Part shown: positions 14,725 through 21,569 of the stretch, in pieces
Numbering within the stretch: position 1 is the stretch's first letter
Layout: each line of letters begins with the position of its first letter
NCBI GenBank assembly: GCA_022562475.1
Contig: JADFPD010000014.1
Coordinates: forward strand, 1 to 33,585
Length of the DNA stretch: 33,585 nucleotides
Origin: Chloroflexota bacterium
GTDB lineage: Bacteria; Chloroflexota; Dehalococcoidia; Lucifugimonadales; UBA3495
Reading direction: 5' to 3'
The notes under the pieces: generated by a model
Seen by the model: only the letters and a program-made list of their open reading frames with translations
What the model was told of the DNA's origin: nothing
Database searches by the model: none
Program-made: the position numbers and the translations under genes

Positions 14725-17094
14725 TTAATCGTCAGCGGATGCCGGCGCAGGTTGTGCGCCGGCTGATCCCCGGACTTGATTCTGCCCTCCCGGGATCCAG
14801 TTAAGCCAACTGGGCAGGTACCACAGATACTTCCCGGCCGCCCCCATCAGCGCGGGGAGCAGCACCAGCAGGATCACCGTGGTGTCAAACAACACAGCAA
14901 TCGCCAAAGCGAAGCCCAACTGCTGTATGGCGAGGAAGCGCATCAGCGCGAACACGGCAGCGACGGCAATCATGATGGCCGCAGCGCTGAACACTATGCC
15001 GAAGCTATCCCCCACCCCCTCGACGATGGCATCCTGAACGCTATAACCGCGGCGGAACAACTCTTCCACCCGGGTAATGGCAAAATTGAGATAGTCCATG
15101 GATATTCCGAACATCAAGGTGAAGACGAACAAAGGCAGCCAGGATTCGATGATACCCGTGGCCTCAAAGCTGAGCAGACCTTCCAGCGCCCAGCCTTCCT
15201 GGAAGACCAGGGTCAGCACTCCATAGGCGGCGCCGACGGCCAGCAGGTTCAGAAACACCGTGATCAACGGGACCAGCAGCGACCGGTACAAAGCCACCAG
15301 AACTACAAATGCGGTCAGCACTACAAAGATGATCACGTACGGCGTCTTTGCCAATATTTCATCCTTGAAGTCCACGTTTGCACCGGTGGCGCCGGTCACC
15401 AGGGCCCTGACCGAACCATCCGGGAAGGCCTCTGGTATCAGTTTTTCTCGAAGCATTGCGACAGCATCCAGGGCTGCGTCGTCGCCGGTGTCGGCGTTGA
15501 GCGGAATCTCGATCGTCTCCAAGTCCCCGGACCGGTTGACGGCGGTCTTGATGGGCTCGGCGAAGGGTATGTGTTCACCGGCGGCCTCCGCCCGCCTGTT
15601 TTCCTCTTGGACTAGCTCAATGAGACGGTTCACACGCTGTTGCACGTCGGCCGCGAAGATATTCTTGCCCTTGCCGGGATCCACGACCACGATCGCCGGC
15701 GCCAGCAGACCGATGGTGAAGTTATCCTCCAGCGCCAGGATCGCAGCCTTGGACTCTACGTCGTCGTGGAGGGCGCGTGCGCCGTTGAAGCCCAGGTTGA
15801 GGGTGAGCATGGGGTAGGTGATGGCCAGCATAACCGCTACACCGAGCGGTGCCACGATCAATGGCCATCTCACCGAGGCCCGGACAATCCAGCGAGCCAC
15901 GGGGTTCAGGAGACCGGCCTGGGCGACGTTGAACCGGCGGCCGACGTAGGGGATGTTGAACCGGCTGAGGCCATCACCTAGCAGGGCCGGCGTCAAGGTG
16001 AGCGCCATCAGCAGGACCATGAAGATTGTCAGCACGGCCGCCACGCCGACGCTGTTGAACGTTACGTTGCCGATGAGGAACATACCCACAAGGGCCAGCA
16101 TGGTGGTAAGACCCGCGATAAAAACGGCCTTCCCGGCGGTGTGGCTGGCGACCGCCGCGGCATCGGCAGCCAAGCGGCCCCGCTCCCTCTCGGCGCGGAA
16201 CCGGGTGAACAGGAACAACGTGTAGTCGATTCCGGCCGCTAGACCCATCAGCAACACTATCTGGATCCAGGCGTCGAACATAGGCACCAAGTTGCTGGCC
16301 AGAGCGACGACCCCCGCCGCCATCGCCACGCCCCCGTAGGCCAGGATGACGGGCAGGCCCGCCGCCACCAGTCCCCCCAATGCGATAAGCAAAATGATCA
16401 GGGTCAAGGGCAGGTTGAGCAGCGAGGCGCTGCTGAAGTCCTCCTCAATGATCTCATTCAACTCCTCAATTATGGTAGCGCCTCCGCCGATCAAGATATC
16501 GAAGCCGGAAGCCGCCGCCGCTTCCGAAACCAGGCGGATAACCTCGTCGACGTCATCGCCGAGTCCGTCGAGTTCGTCGAGTTCGTCGAGTTCCTTGGAG
16601 TATTCCGCCTGGGCGAAGGTCACGTCGCCGCGGGATTCGCCAACCGAAACCAAGGGCGATGACTCCCGTGGCGCCCCAATGTCATAGTGGCTAAGGGTTT
16701 TGGAGAACAACCGATAGCTGGAGGTGACATCGGTACCACCGACAGGGCTTTCTACAGTGGTGCGAAGATCCCGCAAGCCGCTCAGAAGGCCTTGAACCAC
16801 CGCTTCGTACTCTGGGTCGTCAACGGTGAGCGTCGGGTGGGAAAAGACGATTGTTTCGGTGGGCACGCCGCCTTCACCGAAGTCGAAGCGGTCCTGGAGC
16901 AGCACCAACGCTTCGCCAGACTCGCCGGGCAGTGTTTCCTCAAGGTCCTCGTTCGCCCCAACGCTGAAACACGTCCCTATTAGAACAACCGCAATTATCA
17001 ACCACCCAAGGAGCACCCTCTTGCGATGGCGCCTGACCCAGGCCGCGATGTGTCCTGTGAAAAATGGCGTGTATTGCTGGTCCGAAGCTGCCAT
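14725..17094 (-). CDS. MMPL family RND transporter
   Basis: 789-aa integral membrane protein of the MMPL branch of the RND superfamily, whose members in mycobacteria export lipids and siderophores using the proton gradient. Topology by eye: TM1 (VLLGWLIIAVVLIGTCFSVG), a periplasmic domain, five helices with GLAAGIDYTLFLFTRFRAER, a second periplasmic domain, five more helices with MFGISMDYLNFAITRVEELF; the two GxxxDY segments are the expected proton-relay motifs. Start ATG at 17094 has GGGGGA 8 bases upstream; the frame is open to 17157 but the extra 21 residues are unlikely. It ends in an alanine/proline tail. Probably cotranscribed with the binding lipoprotein upstream (68-bp gap). The substrate is unknown. 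Confidence 0.93.
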   Translation of the reverse strand: MAASDQQYTPFFTGHIAAWVRRHRKRVLLGWLIIAVVLIGTCFSVGANEDLEETLPGESGEALVLLQDRFDFGEGGVPTETIVFSHPTLTVDDPEYEAVVQGLLSGLRDLRTTVESPVGGTDVTSSYRLFSKTLSHYDIGAPRESSPLVSVGESRGDVTFAQAEYSKELDELDELDGLGDDVDEVIRLVSEAAAASGFDILIGGGATIIEELNEIIEEDFSSASLLNLPLTLIILLIALGGLVAAGLPVILAYGGVAMAAGVVALASNLVPMFDAWIQIVLLMGLAAGIDYTLFLFTRFRAERERGRLAADAAAVASHTAGKAVFIAGLTTMLALVGMFLIGNVTFNSVGVAAVLTIFMVLLMALTLTPALLGDGLSRFNIPYVGRRFNVAQAGLLNPVARWIVRASVRWPLIVAPLGVAVMLAITYPMLTLNLGFNGARALHDDVESKAAILALEDNFTIGLLAPAIVVVDPGKGKNIFAADVQQRVNRLIELVQEENRRAEAAGEHIPFAEPIKTAVNRSGDLETIEIPLNADTGDDAALDAVAMLREKLIPEAFPDGSVRALVTGATGANVDFKDEILAKTPYVIIFVVLTAFVVLVALYRSLLVPLITVFLNLLAVGAAYGVLTLVFQEGWALEGLLSFEATGIIESWLPLFVFTLMFGISMDYLNFAITRVEELFRRGYSVQDAIVEGVGDSFGIVFSAAAIMIAVAAVFALMRFLAIQQLGFALAIAVLFDTTVILLVLLPALMGAAGKYLWYLPSWLNWIPGGQNQVRGSAGAQPAPASADD
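14741..14763. terminator. Perfect GC hairpin between converging genes
   Basis: Stem GCCGGCGCA/TGCGCCGGC (9 bp, perfect) with a 5-base loop, located in the last codons of the minus-strand MMPL gene and 115 bp beyond the plus-strand permease. There is no T tract on either side, so it is not a classical intrinsic terminator, but its place between convergent genes suits a transcription barrier. Confidence 0.35.
16567..16593. repeat. Three perfect 9-bp repeats inside the MMPL gene
   Basis: GTCGAGTTC occurs three times in tandem (16567-16575, 16576-16584, 16585-16593), coding on the minus strand for the acidic run ELDELDELDG in the first periplasmic domain. Being a multiple of three, slippage would change the length of the acidic run without breaking the frame. 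Confidence 0.9.
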
Positions 17095-19202: not shown

Positions 19203-21569
19203 CTAGCACTCGACGCCGAACGCGTCCCGGACCGTGTCTCCGATCTGGTCTATGTAACCGTCGATCGTGTTGTCCAAACCGTAGCGCAGCTCCATCAGGC
19301 GATGTTGCACGGCGATCTTCATGTAGGCGCCGCAGGGCAGCAGATTGGAGTTGGTTAGGACAACGATCCCTGTATCCGACTCTGGCAAGAGGGCGGTATG
19401 CGCCGACCACCCTTCCAGGTCGCCAGGGTTGTGCACCACGGGTATGCCATGGTAAGTCCCAACGAACCACCCCATTCCGTAGTCGTATTGGGAGTCCAGG
19501 GGGTTATATAGGGCACTCGGTAGCCAAAGTCGATCTAAGAAAGCGTCTTGGCCACCGCCGATGTTTATCTGGGGCGCCCATGTTTCAGTCAGGTTTTCAG
19601 ATGAGATGACCCGCACGCCGTCGGGAGATACGCCCCGGTTAAGTTGGGTAATGAGGTAGCGGGCCAGGTCGTTGGCGGTTGACGCGACACCACCGGCGGC
19701 TTCGATCCCCTCACCCGGAATAAACCCTTCGAAAAAGCTGCTGGAAGCAACGGGTTCGCCCGCCTCATTCCAATTGTGGGGTCTAGCTCCTTCAGGGTGG
19801 GAATCCATCGATTCAAGATCGAGGGTAGTGCTGGTCATGCCGATTGGATCAAATACGCGTTCTTGCATCTGCTCGGCGTAGGAGTCGAACAAACTGCTTA
19901 ATTCGCCGCCCGCTGCCATGACTCCCAGATAAGCGGCTGTGGCTACTCCCTGGTTGTCATAGAAGTGTTGGTCTCCCGGGGGTCCCGCAATTGGGACCTC
20001 GGCCAGGGCAATCATGAGGTCTTCGGCGCTGAGGCCTTTGCCGATCCACAGACTATCGTCCCGCCTCATTCCAGTTTGCATGCTTAGCAGGTCGCGAACG
20101 GTTACGGCCAACGTGCTGTCCGGGTGGGACAGTTGAAAGTCGGGCCAAATCTCAATGGCGGGAGTGTCCCACTCAAAGAATCCATCATCTACCAAGGAGG
20201 CCAACATCATGGCGTTGATCGACTTGGTCATCGAGCCTATGCCAAACAAAGTGTCGGCGGTCACCGGGTCCTCTTTGCCTAGTTCGCGGACTCCAAAGCC
20301 CTCGGCGTAAACGACCTCGCCGTCAGCAACGACAGCCACAGCCGCGCCCGGAATGTTCCATCGCTCCACGGCCTCTTCTATGTATTTCGTGAATCCAGCC
20401 AGAACCTCATCAGTGAGGGGCTGCTGGTCAGGAATGACGGCGGCAGCGAGCTGCCTCGGACCGAACAGCCATGCCGACGCGTCGTTGCCAACGATCTGGT
20501 CGATCTCTTCTTGAGTGAATGGATACTTGGTTAGCGTATCAAGAGCTTTTTCGGGGGTCTCCACCGCCGCGACCATCAGATAGTCGGAACCAAAAAACAC
20601 CTGCTCCAGACCCCAGCGCCTCAGGTTCCACACTATCATTTCTCGTTGTGACAGCGGCGCATCTTGGTAAATCTCAAGGCAGGCGCTCAAATCCAGGAAA
20701 AGATTATCAAGGCGTACAAAACGCGGTTGTGCGTTGCGAGCTCCAAACAGAATGTTCTCTATTTCACCTGGCGTCAGCCCGGCGCAATGAGCCAATAGGA
20801 GCCGAAGTTTGGAGTGGGTTCCGAGCATGCGGTACATATTTAATACCCCACCGCGGTCGAGAGCGACGCCAGCGAGATGGATCAATACAGGAATGTCCAG
20901 CTCCTGGCTCTTGTCCAAAACGAGAGACAAAGCTTCGACCTGCTCATCGTCTTCCCAATCCATGCCCGATGCTTGCAGCTTTACGCCGATCATTCCAGAC
21001 AGGCTAAGACAACGATCTATTTCGGCAACTGCGCCTTCAACTACCGGGTTGATACCGCAAAAGCCGATTAAACGGTCTGGAAAACCCGCTATCTGCTCGG
21101 AAACCCAGTCGTTCTCGGCACTCACCCCTTCGCTCGATTTTGCTTGGTAGGCGGTGGACAGGACTACGGCCTTTTCCACATTGCCTTGATCTAAACGGTT
21201 GATAAGGTCTGCCGCATCCGAGGCTGGCGTGCCTTCTGGGGCGCCGTAAGCCGAAACGACATGCTCAGCGCTTAAGAGATGAGTGTGCACATCGATGGCG
21301 GCGCCGGTGGCTACCAGAGGAGCAGCGGCTGATATTCCCTCCCCTTGTGGGCCTTCTGCCCCTTGCTCACCTTGTGTGCCCTGCGAACCCTGCGCGCCTG
21401 CGGGTCCCTGAGCGCCTGCGGGTCCCTGAGCGCCTGCGGACCCCTGTCCACCTTGTGGTCCTTGAGGTCCCTGAGTTCCATCGGAACCTGGGTCTCCTCC
21501 GCAGGCCATAGCCAAGATCAGGATAAATATTAGTGTTGCTCCCAGTACAGGTCTTAGATTCCGAATCAT
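19203..21569 (-). CDS. Lipoprotein with collagen-like stalk, amidohydrolase and beta-lactamase domains
   Basis: 788-aa exported protein with four parts. (1) Lipobox signal peptide from the ATG at 21569 (GGAAAAAAAGAA upstream): hydrophobic run ending LILAMAC, lipid cysteine 23. (2) Residues 28-79, about seventeen G-x-y triplets rich in Q, A and P, a collagen-like stalk. (3) An amidohydrolase (amidohydrolase-2 type TIM barrel), about residues 90-390: AIDVHTHLL with H95 and H97, VLIHLAG, LLLAHCAG and FFGSDYL, so the metal ligands look intact. (4) A serine beta-lactamase/esterase domain (S12, class C-like), about residues 400-788: GIGSMTKS with S446 and K449, YDNQG with Y537 and N539, and HNPGDLEGWSA in place of KTG. 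I know of no standard protein with this arrangement. It is probably displayed outside the membrane and hydrolytic; substrates are unknown. Confidence 0.92.
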   Translation of the reverse strand: MIRNLRPVLGATLIFILILAMACGGDPGSDGTQGPQGPQGGQGSAGAQGPAGAQGPAGAQGSQGTQGEQGAEGPQGEGISAAAPLVATGAAIDVHTHLLSAEHVVSAYGAPEGTPASDAADLINRLDQGNVEKAVVLSTAYQAKSSEGVSAENDWVSEQIAGFPDRLIGFCGINPVVEGAVAEIDRCLSLSGMIGVKLQASGMDWEDDEQVEALSLVLDKSQELDIPVLIHLAGVALDRGGVLNMYRMLGTHSKLRLLLAHCAGLTPGEIENILFGARNAQPRFVRLDNLFLDLSACLEIYQDAPLSQREMIVWNLRRWGLEQVFFGSDYLMVAAVETPEKALDTLTKYPFTQEEIDQIVGNDASAWLFGPRQLAAAVIPDQQPLTDEVLAGFTKYIEEAVERWNIPGAAVAVVADGEVVYAEGFGVRELGKEDPVTADTLFGIGSMTKSINAMMLASLVDDGFFEWDTPAIEIWPDFQLSHPDSTLAVTVRDLLSMQTGMRRDDSLWIGKGLSAEDLMIALAEVPIAGPPGDQHFYDNQGVATAAYLGVMAAGGELSSLFDSYAEQMQERVFDPIGMTSTTLDLESMDSHPEGARPHNWNEAGEPVASSSFFEGFIPGEGIEAAGGVASTANDLARYLITQLNRGVSPDGVRVISSENLTETWAPQINIGGGQDAFLDRLWLPSALYNPLDSQYDYGMGWFVGTYHGIPVVHNPGDLEGWSAHTALLPESDTGIVVLTNSNLLPCGAYMKIAVQHRLMELRYGLDNTIDGYIDQIGDTVRDAFGVEC
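21394..21447. repeat. 18-bp tandem repeats encoding the collagen-like stalk
   Basis: The unit GCGCCTGCGGGTCCCTGA occurs at 21394-21411 and 21412-21429 exactly and at 21430-21447 with differences in its last third. Each unit codes for two collagen-type triplets (minus strand). The repeats indicate recent expansion of the stalk by slippage or unequal recombination. Confidence 0.95.

Follow-up and report, generated by a model that had tools for sequence, protein, structure and literature searches.

Our analysis revealed that a predicted lipid anchor, a collagen-like stalk, a metal-dependent amidohydrolase barrel and a serine hydrolase of the S12 family follow one another in a single protein of a marine SAR202 bacterium. 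The window, by which we mean the whole stretch of 33,585 nucleotides analysed, is one entire contig of a 2.96-Mb Chloroflexota SAR202 MAG (166 contigs, 78% complete); the same order/family includes the SAR202 MAGs Casp-Chloro-G4 (G106, MUCK01000010.1) and Io17-Chloro-G2 (G034, MUCP01000045.1). The gene is a single uninterrupted frame of 788 aa on the minus strand, from the ATG at 21569 to the stop codon at 19203. All three of its domains score above the Pfam gathering cut-offs: Collagen (PF01391, residues 25-77) with 29.5 bits against 27.2, Amidohydro_2 (PF04909, residues 92-362) with 72.3 bits against 26.4, and Beta-lactamase (PF00144, corresponding to S12, residues 394-743) with 188.1 bits against 27. 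The signal peptide and lipobox were read by eye from the translation, where the N-terminal hydrophobic signal ends in LILAMAC, as in a lipoprotein. The initial annotation had proposed one protein with these same four elements, and both the Pfam scores and the lipobox Cys23 bear it out. It had put the number of G-x-y triplets at about 17, close to our uninterrupted count of 18, and the 18-bp stalk repeats that it described are real (Table 1). Taken as anatomy alone, the predicted order of anchor, stalk, metal barrel and S12 domain in one frame is something of which we are highly confident.

Table 1. Predicted features of the fusion gene, with positions in the window
Feature	Coordinates	Strand	Basis
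Lipoprotein signal peptide, residues 1-22	21504..21569	-	MIRNLRPVLGATLIFILILAMA then Cys; hydrophobic core
Lipobox +1 cysteine C23, predicted lipid anchor	21501..21503	-	invariant in 6/6 aligned collagen-amidohydrolase proteins
Collagen-like stalk, residues 25-78, 18 G-x-y triplets	21336..21497	-	PF01391 and triplet count
18-bp tandem repeat in stalk, 2.9 copies, 97% matches, encoding GAQGPA repeats	21388..21439	-	TRF
Amidohydro_2 (ACMSD-type) TIM barrel, residues 80-371	20457..21332	-	PF04909, AlphaFold2 model, fold matches, ligand table
Short linker at fusion point, residues 372-393	20391..20456	-	S12-less relatives end at the equivalent of 368-371
S12 (PF00144) serine hydrolase domain, residues 394-743	19341..20390	-	PF00144, alignments
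C-terminal tail, residues 744-788, ending in VEC, and stop codon	19203..19340	-	translation

An architecture seen in one genome only, and in a MAG as fragmented and incomplete as this one, naturally raises the concern that an assembly chimera or a one-off frame error has joined two genes, the more so as we found no independent copy. However, the stop codon or frameshift between the enzyme domains, near 20400, to which the initial annotation had pointed as one way its proposal could fail, was looked for and is not there. The frame stays open over 841 codons across the fusion gene region, and the join coincides with the end of the first domain. Third-position GC is alike on the two sides of the join (0.57 and 0.67, with 0.60-0.76 in the neighbouring genes), and the S12 part has no signal peptide of its own, as expected of a true fusion. 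An artefact thus seems very improbable. Judged by its sequence, the fusion is real and unusual, seen once, and represents a new form of known kinds of proteins.

The search for the same architecture elsewhere brought up one half of it. Searches of 250 genomes from the order, 393 from the class and 400 from the phylum, at a threshold of E<=1e-30, turned up no second fusion. A contig search across genomes gave no match to the full-length fusion protein; run with the barrel alignment, it recovered relatives of the barrel, none of which, among those checked, has a fused S12. The combination of stalk and amidohydrolase, on the other hand, recurs: five other genomes of the order (of 250) encode a collagen-stalked lipoprotein whose barrel domain is 36-45% identical to that of the window protein, and the copy in a sixth genome is broken. 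In Io17-Chloro-G2, the amidohydrolase copy (L006 / L138) is broken by stops or a frameshift. The SAR202 proteins G106 (from Casp-Chloro-G4), G107, G108, G015 and G021 have the lipobox cysteine, the G-x-y stalk, the barrel and a cysteine pair, C262/C297, in common with the window protein, but they differ from it in lacking S12, in having degenerate metal ligands and, in some cases, in carrying an Ig-like insert or a duplicated domain. As predicted from their sequences, stalk-plus-amidohydrolase proteins make up a lipoprotein family that is sparsely distributed in SAR202 and has no S12. Since these S12-less relatives terminate only a few residues from the equivalent of residue 371, the S12 domain has been added at a domain boundary.

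Other stalked proteins illustrate the variety of this design. In another SAR202 family, the stalked amidohydrolase lipoproteins (L033, L034 and L035) have lost nearly all metal ligands, yet are conserved, and we regard them as putative pseudoenzymes; an alpha/beta hydrolase gene adjoins them. In one stalked amidohydrolase (L004:427-2361), a domain of ~130 aa with no Pfam match occurs twice in tandem. A small domain inserted in the protein of L005 occurs behind collagen stalks both with the barrel (L005) and without it (L070, L096); because the same insert is found behind barrel-less stalks, modules have been exchanged behind the stalk. Within the open-access literature (subscription journals being outside its scope), our search returned no description of collagen-like proteins in SAR202 or other Chloroflexi, and nothing relevant on an amidohydrolase/beta-lactamase fusion. 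The SAR202 collagen-stalk design therefore appears to be undescribed in the open literature, and it is a more general finding than the fusion itself.

The amidohydrolase barrel of the window protein has a complete metal site. The HxH motif, read as intact in the initial annotation, is formed by H95 and H97, and alignment with outgroups shows that H231, H261 and D329 are present as well, so that the full pattern of HxH, beta-5 His, beta-6 His and beta-8 Asp is found. The same set (H/H/H/H/D) occurs in Caldilineaceae, Rhodobacteraceae and cytosolic-type outgroup proteins. All five aligned SAR202 relatives, in contrast, have lost ligands, the series being M/H/H/H/D, R/H/H/H/D, K/Q/H/Q/G (twice) and N/I/N/R/G: G021 and G015 lack the first His alone, G106 and G107 lack HxH together with the beta-6 His and the Asp, and G108 lacks all five. 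The window copy is thus the sole complete metal site among the SAR202 members aligned. Such repeated loss suggests that the barrel may have ceased, or may be ceasing, to be catalytic and may serve for binding or as a spacer, leaving S12 alone to turn over substrate. In line with this, the ligand-less pair G106/G107 is conserved: with a dN of 0.16 against a dS of 1.9, which is near saturation, the metal-less barrel is strongly constrained and so still has some role. On the other hand, not only the window copy but also the exported homologues outside SAR202 keep all five ligands. Moreover, in a tree where the exported clade is supported at 100/100, the window branch lies outside the others, ligand-less lineages included (94/91, below the starred level). 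For the window protein, we therefore consider a non-catalytic barrel unlikely, and a catalytic metal site remains our preferred reading.

Further features place the barrel in an exported clade of a known superfamily. The C262/C297 pair is found in all exported members, the outgroups having W/F and S/T/A at these positions, and is consistent with a disulfide in the exported clade. The AlphaFold2 model (pLDDT 90.9, pTM 0.91) is a (beta/alpha)8 barrel. Its best solved folds are 2dvt (Z 22.2) and 4dlf of COG3618 (Z 21.5), and the top Foldseek match is 4i6k, a probable 2-pyrone-4,6-dicarboxylate hydrolase. Because the matches to ACMSD-superfamily decarboxylases, COG3618 proteins and PDC lactonases are tied at Z 20-22, comparison of the modeled fold fixes the family of the barrel, but not its reaction, be it that of a lactonase or of a decarboxylase. 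The window barrel shares its TIM-barrel fold and metal-ligand pattern with the ACMSD / gamma-resorcylate decarboxylase / PDC lactonase superfamily (PF04909, COG2159/COG3618), but at 12-20% identity and given the varied chemistry of these enzymes the substrate is not transferable. To our knowledge, characterised ACMSD-superfamily members are cytosolic and have neither stalk nor partner.

Exported homologues without a stalk were identified, through the contig search with the barrel alignment, in Caldilineaceae CHL12 and in two Rhodobacteraceae MAGs (L129-L131). These Amidohydro_2 proteins have the exported-type barrel, the five ligands and the cysteine pair, and are 43-50% identical to the window protein, but they have no collagen stalk, and their S12 is not fused and belongs to another subgroup. 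The distribution is very sparse: homologues were found in only one of 46 Caldilineaceae-family genomes and one of 395 Rhodobacteraceae-family genomes, in each case the query's own; there was no close homologue in plasmids and none in viral contigs. The Caldilineaceae and Rhodobacteraceae proteins (L129 and L130) are nevertheless 69% identical, and this identity, combined with absence elsewhere among the genomes sampled in the two families, suggests horizontal transfer of the exported amidohydrolase between them.

The CHL12 locus (L129:255-2765) is of particular relevance to the fusion. Here, the TAA of the exported amidohydrolase (48% identity) is followed by a GGAGGA-type ribosome site and then by an in-frame ATG, at which an exported S12 gene starts. 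The 7.6-Mb CHL12 genome has 16 PF00144 matches, which, assuming ~7,000 genes, puts the chance of an S12 gene on either flank at ~0.5% per genome, and at 1-2% over the three loci inspected. A gene pair in one class and a fusion in another suggest a Rosetta-stone signal for functional pairing. The S12 domains of CHL12 and the window are 24-31% identical, depending on the alignment, whereas S12 domains from other Chloroflexota classes reach 39%, so that pair and fusion may have been independent, convergent events. In another genome of the SAR202 order (G136, L037:3-2619), an S12 gene and an exported Amidohydro_3-like gene are neighbours on one strand.

The S12 domain itself, assigned on the basis of Pfam and PDB sequence matches, is less regular than the barrel. 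Two of its motifs, S446-x-x-K449 and Y537-x-N539, are present, in agreement with the initial annotation. The third, on which the initial annotation was silent, is N714-P715-G716, where nearly all aligned relatives have H-x-G, and so departs from the [K/H]-x-G pattern. A His lies one residue before N714, but ungapped local alignments to 7spn and to AmpC 3iwi agree on the N714-P-G716 register. The third motif is known to vary within the family, the esterase EstB having W-G-G. The profile match and the first two motifs are unaffected, and we therefore place the domain within the S12 fold family, as an atypical case; the N-P-G motif lowers our confidence in catalysis of the beta-lactamase type. 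The earlier proposal that both catalytic parts are functional thus holds for the barrel ligands and the first two S12 motifs, but is weakened by the third. The two successive hydrolyses that it also suggested are at most a possibility, given this altered motif and the conserved relatives whose barrel has lost its metal site. The domain shares its length of about 350 aa, S-x-x-K and Y-x-N with S12 serine hydrolases such as AmpC, EstB-type esterases, D-aminopeptidases and LACTB; it differs from them in the third motif and in its fusion to a metal barrel, and its nearest relatives are uncharacterised lipoproteins of other Chloroflexota classes (39%, L051), while S12 matches within the genus are 24-28% identical.

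Alternatively, the S12 domain could be the main enzyme, working in D-amino-acid or cell-wall chemistry and being of the DD-peptidase, D-aminopeptidase or beta-lactamase type, with everything else serving as an anchor. The best PDB sequence match of the domain is 2qmi, a PBP-related beta-lactamase, the phage tail lysin family phrog_382 also matches it, and the S12 gene next to the Amidohydro_3-like gene in G136 would fit such chemistry. Profiles for class C beta-lactamases and D-aminopeptidases match too, yet all far under their curated cut-offs, the class C (AmpC) equivalog scoring 75.7 bits of the 415 required; the third motif, moreover, has neither Lys nor His. S12 sequence by itself does not tell esterases, lactonases and peptidases apart. 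We find a dedicated cell-wall enzyme rather improbable and continue to favor a hydrolase with two working domains.

The stalk is short, and Pro occupies the second position in 5 of 18 triplets and the third position in 1 of 18. This scarcity of Pro, the small number of triplets, the absence of a known trimerisation domain and a TRF repeat that looks recently expanded would all be compatible with a flexible spacer instead of a triple helix. Against this, the G-x-y register is uninterrupted and has Pfam support, and all SAR202 relatives, like many other proteins of the family, keep stalks of varied sequence. A mere spacer is a possibility that we take seriously, though not the one we favor. Among known systems, a counterpart is found in bacterial collagen-like surface proteins such as streptococcal Scl, where a G-x-y stalk likewise displays a functional head outside the cell; the window protein differs in its short stalk, its lipid rather than wall anchor and its enzymes as heads.

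Collagen-like segments are common in this lineage, with PF01391 matches in 44 of 50 genomes of the SAR202 family that holds the window. A recurrent protein of the genus combines a collagen-like stalk with a trypsin-like domain (L038:895-1782, L074, L075, L078, L079, L084 and L088); Trypsin_2 was confirmed for L038 and L074, and a lipobox is recognisable in most of them. The L038 protein, which has a lipobox, is encoded in the window's own genome. Such proteins are possible surface proteases. In a second architecture common in the family, the collagen segment lies just before a C-terminal membrane helix (L077, L082, L090, L094, L097 and L099). One might speculate that the family has a general lipoprotein platform with a collagen stalk, on which free-living marine cells present interchangeable enzymes (proteases, amidohydrolases and serine hydrolases) to the outside. 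The window protein would then be its most elaborate product, a trimeric sequential metal and serine hydrolase with six active sites, and sister proteins would reuse the dead barrel as a binding module. As a whole, this broad scenario is doubtful.

The neighbourhood offers little guidance. The flanks of the fusion gene do encode two MMPL proteins and a Peripla_BP_6 protein, matching the transporters and binding protein of the initial annotation, which had taken them to indicate an envelope scavenging or detoxification locus. However, the closest MMPL2 relatives in seven genomes of the genus have no stalked enzyme or amidohydrolase, S12 or binding protein adjoining them, and the window genome has several MMPL paralogues. 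Because the MMPL2 relatives lack these neighbours, the transporters are weak evidence for function, and we discarded both the neighbourhood as a functional clue and the locus proposed from it. Inside the first MMPL gene, a 9-bp tandem repeat (16556-16593) encodes an acidic run of the ELDELD type.

The dark ocean harbors SAR202 bacteria in abundance, and these bacteria are believed to attack recalcitrant dissolved organic matter. Our preferred, if tentative, reading is that of a membrane-anchored, collagen-stalked two-domain hydrolase, joint catalysis on lactone, ester or amide compounds included; as a package it is quite possible, at somewhat short of an even chance. The lipid would hold the protein on the outer face of the membrane, and the G-x-y segment, assuming that it trimerises, would form a short triple helix of ~15 nm and so display each enzyme in three copies. 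At the surface, the metal barrel and S12 would attack one and the same class of small lactones, esters or amides, and the cell would take up the products. The fusion most likely arose when a stalked amidohydrolase gene lost its stop codon beside an S12 gene, or recombined into one, thereby turning a gene pair of the Caldilineaceae type into a single polypeptide. The ring opening proposed for SAR202 metabolism proceeds via lactones and needs a lactonase or esterase (PMC5395668); cultured SAR202 grow better on sugar lactones, and COG3618 paralogues have been assigned to that path (PMC10444878). A stalked pair of lactone/ester hydrolases, as proposed here, would fit this biology.

If the enzymes are indeed stalked, hydrolysis would take place at a fixed distance from the membrane, and the products could be captured instead of being lost by diffusion. 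The fusion, together with the gene pair in another class, points to activities that belong together and makes the protein a candidate bifunctional enzyme. Its ligand-less relatives, in turn, would provide a natural series of transitions from enzyme to pseudoenzyme on the same stalk.
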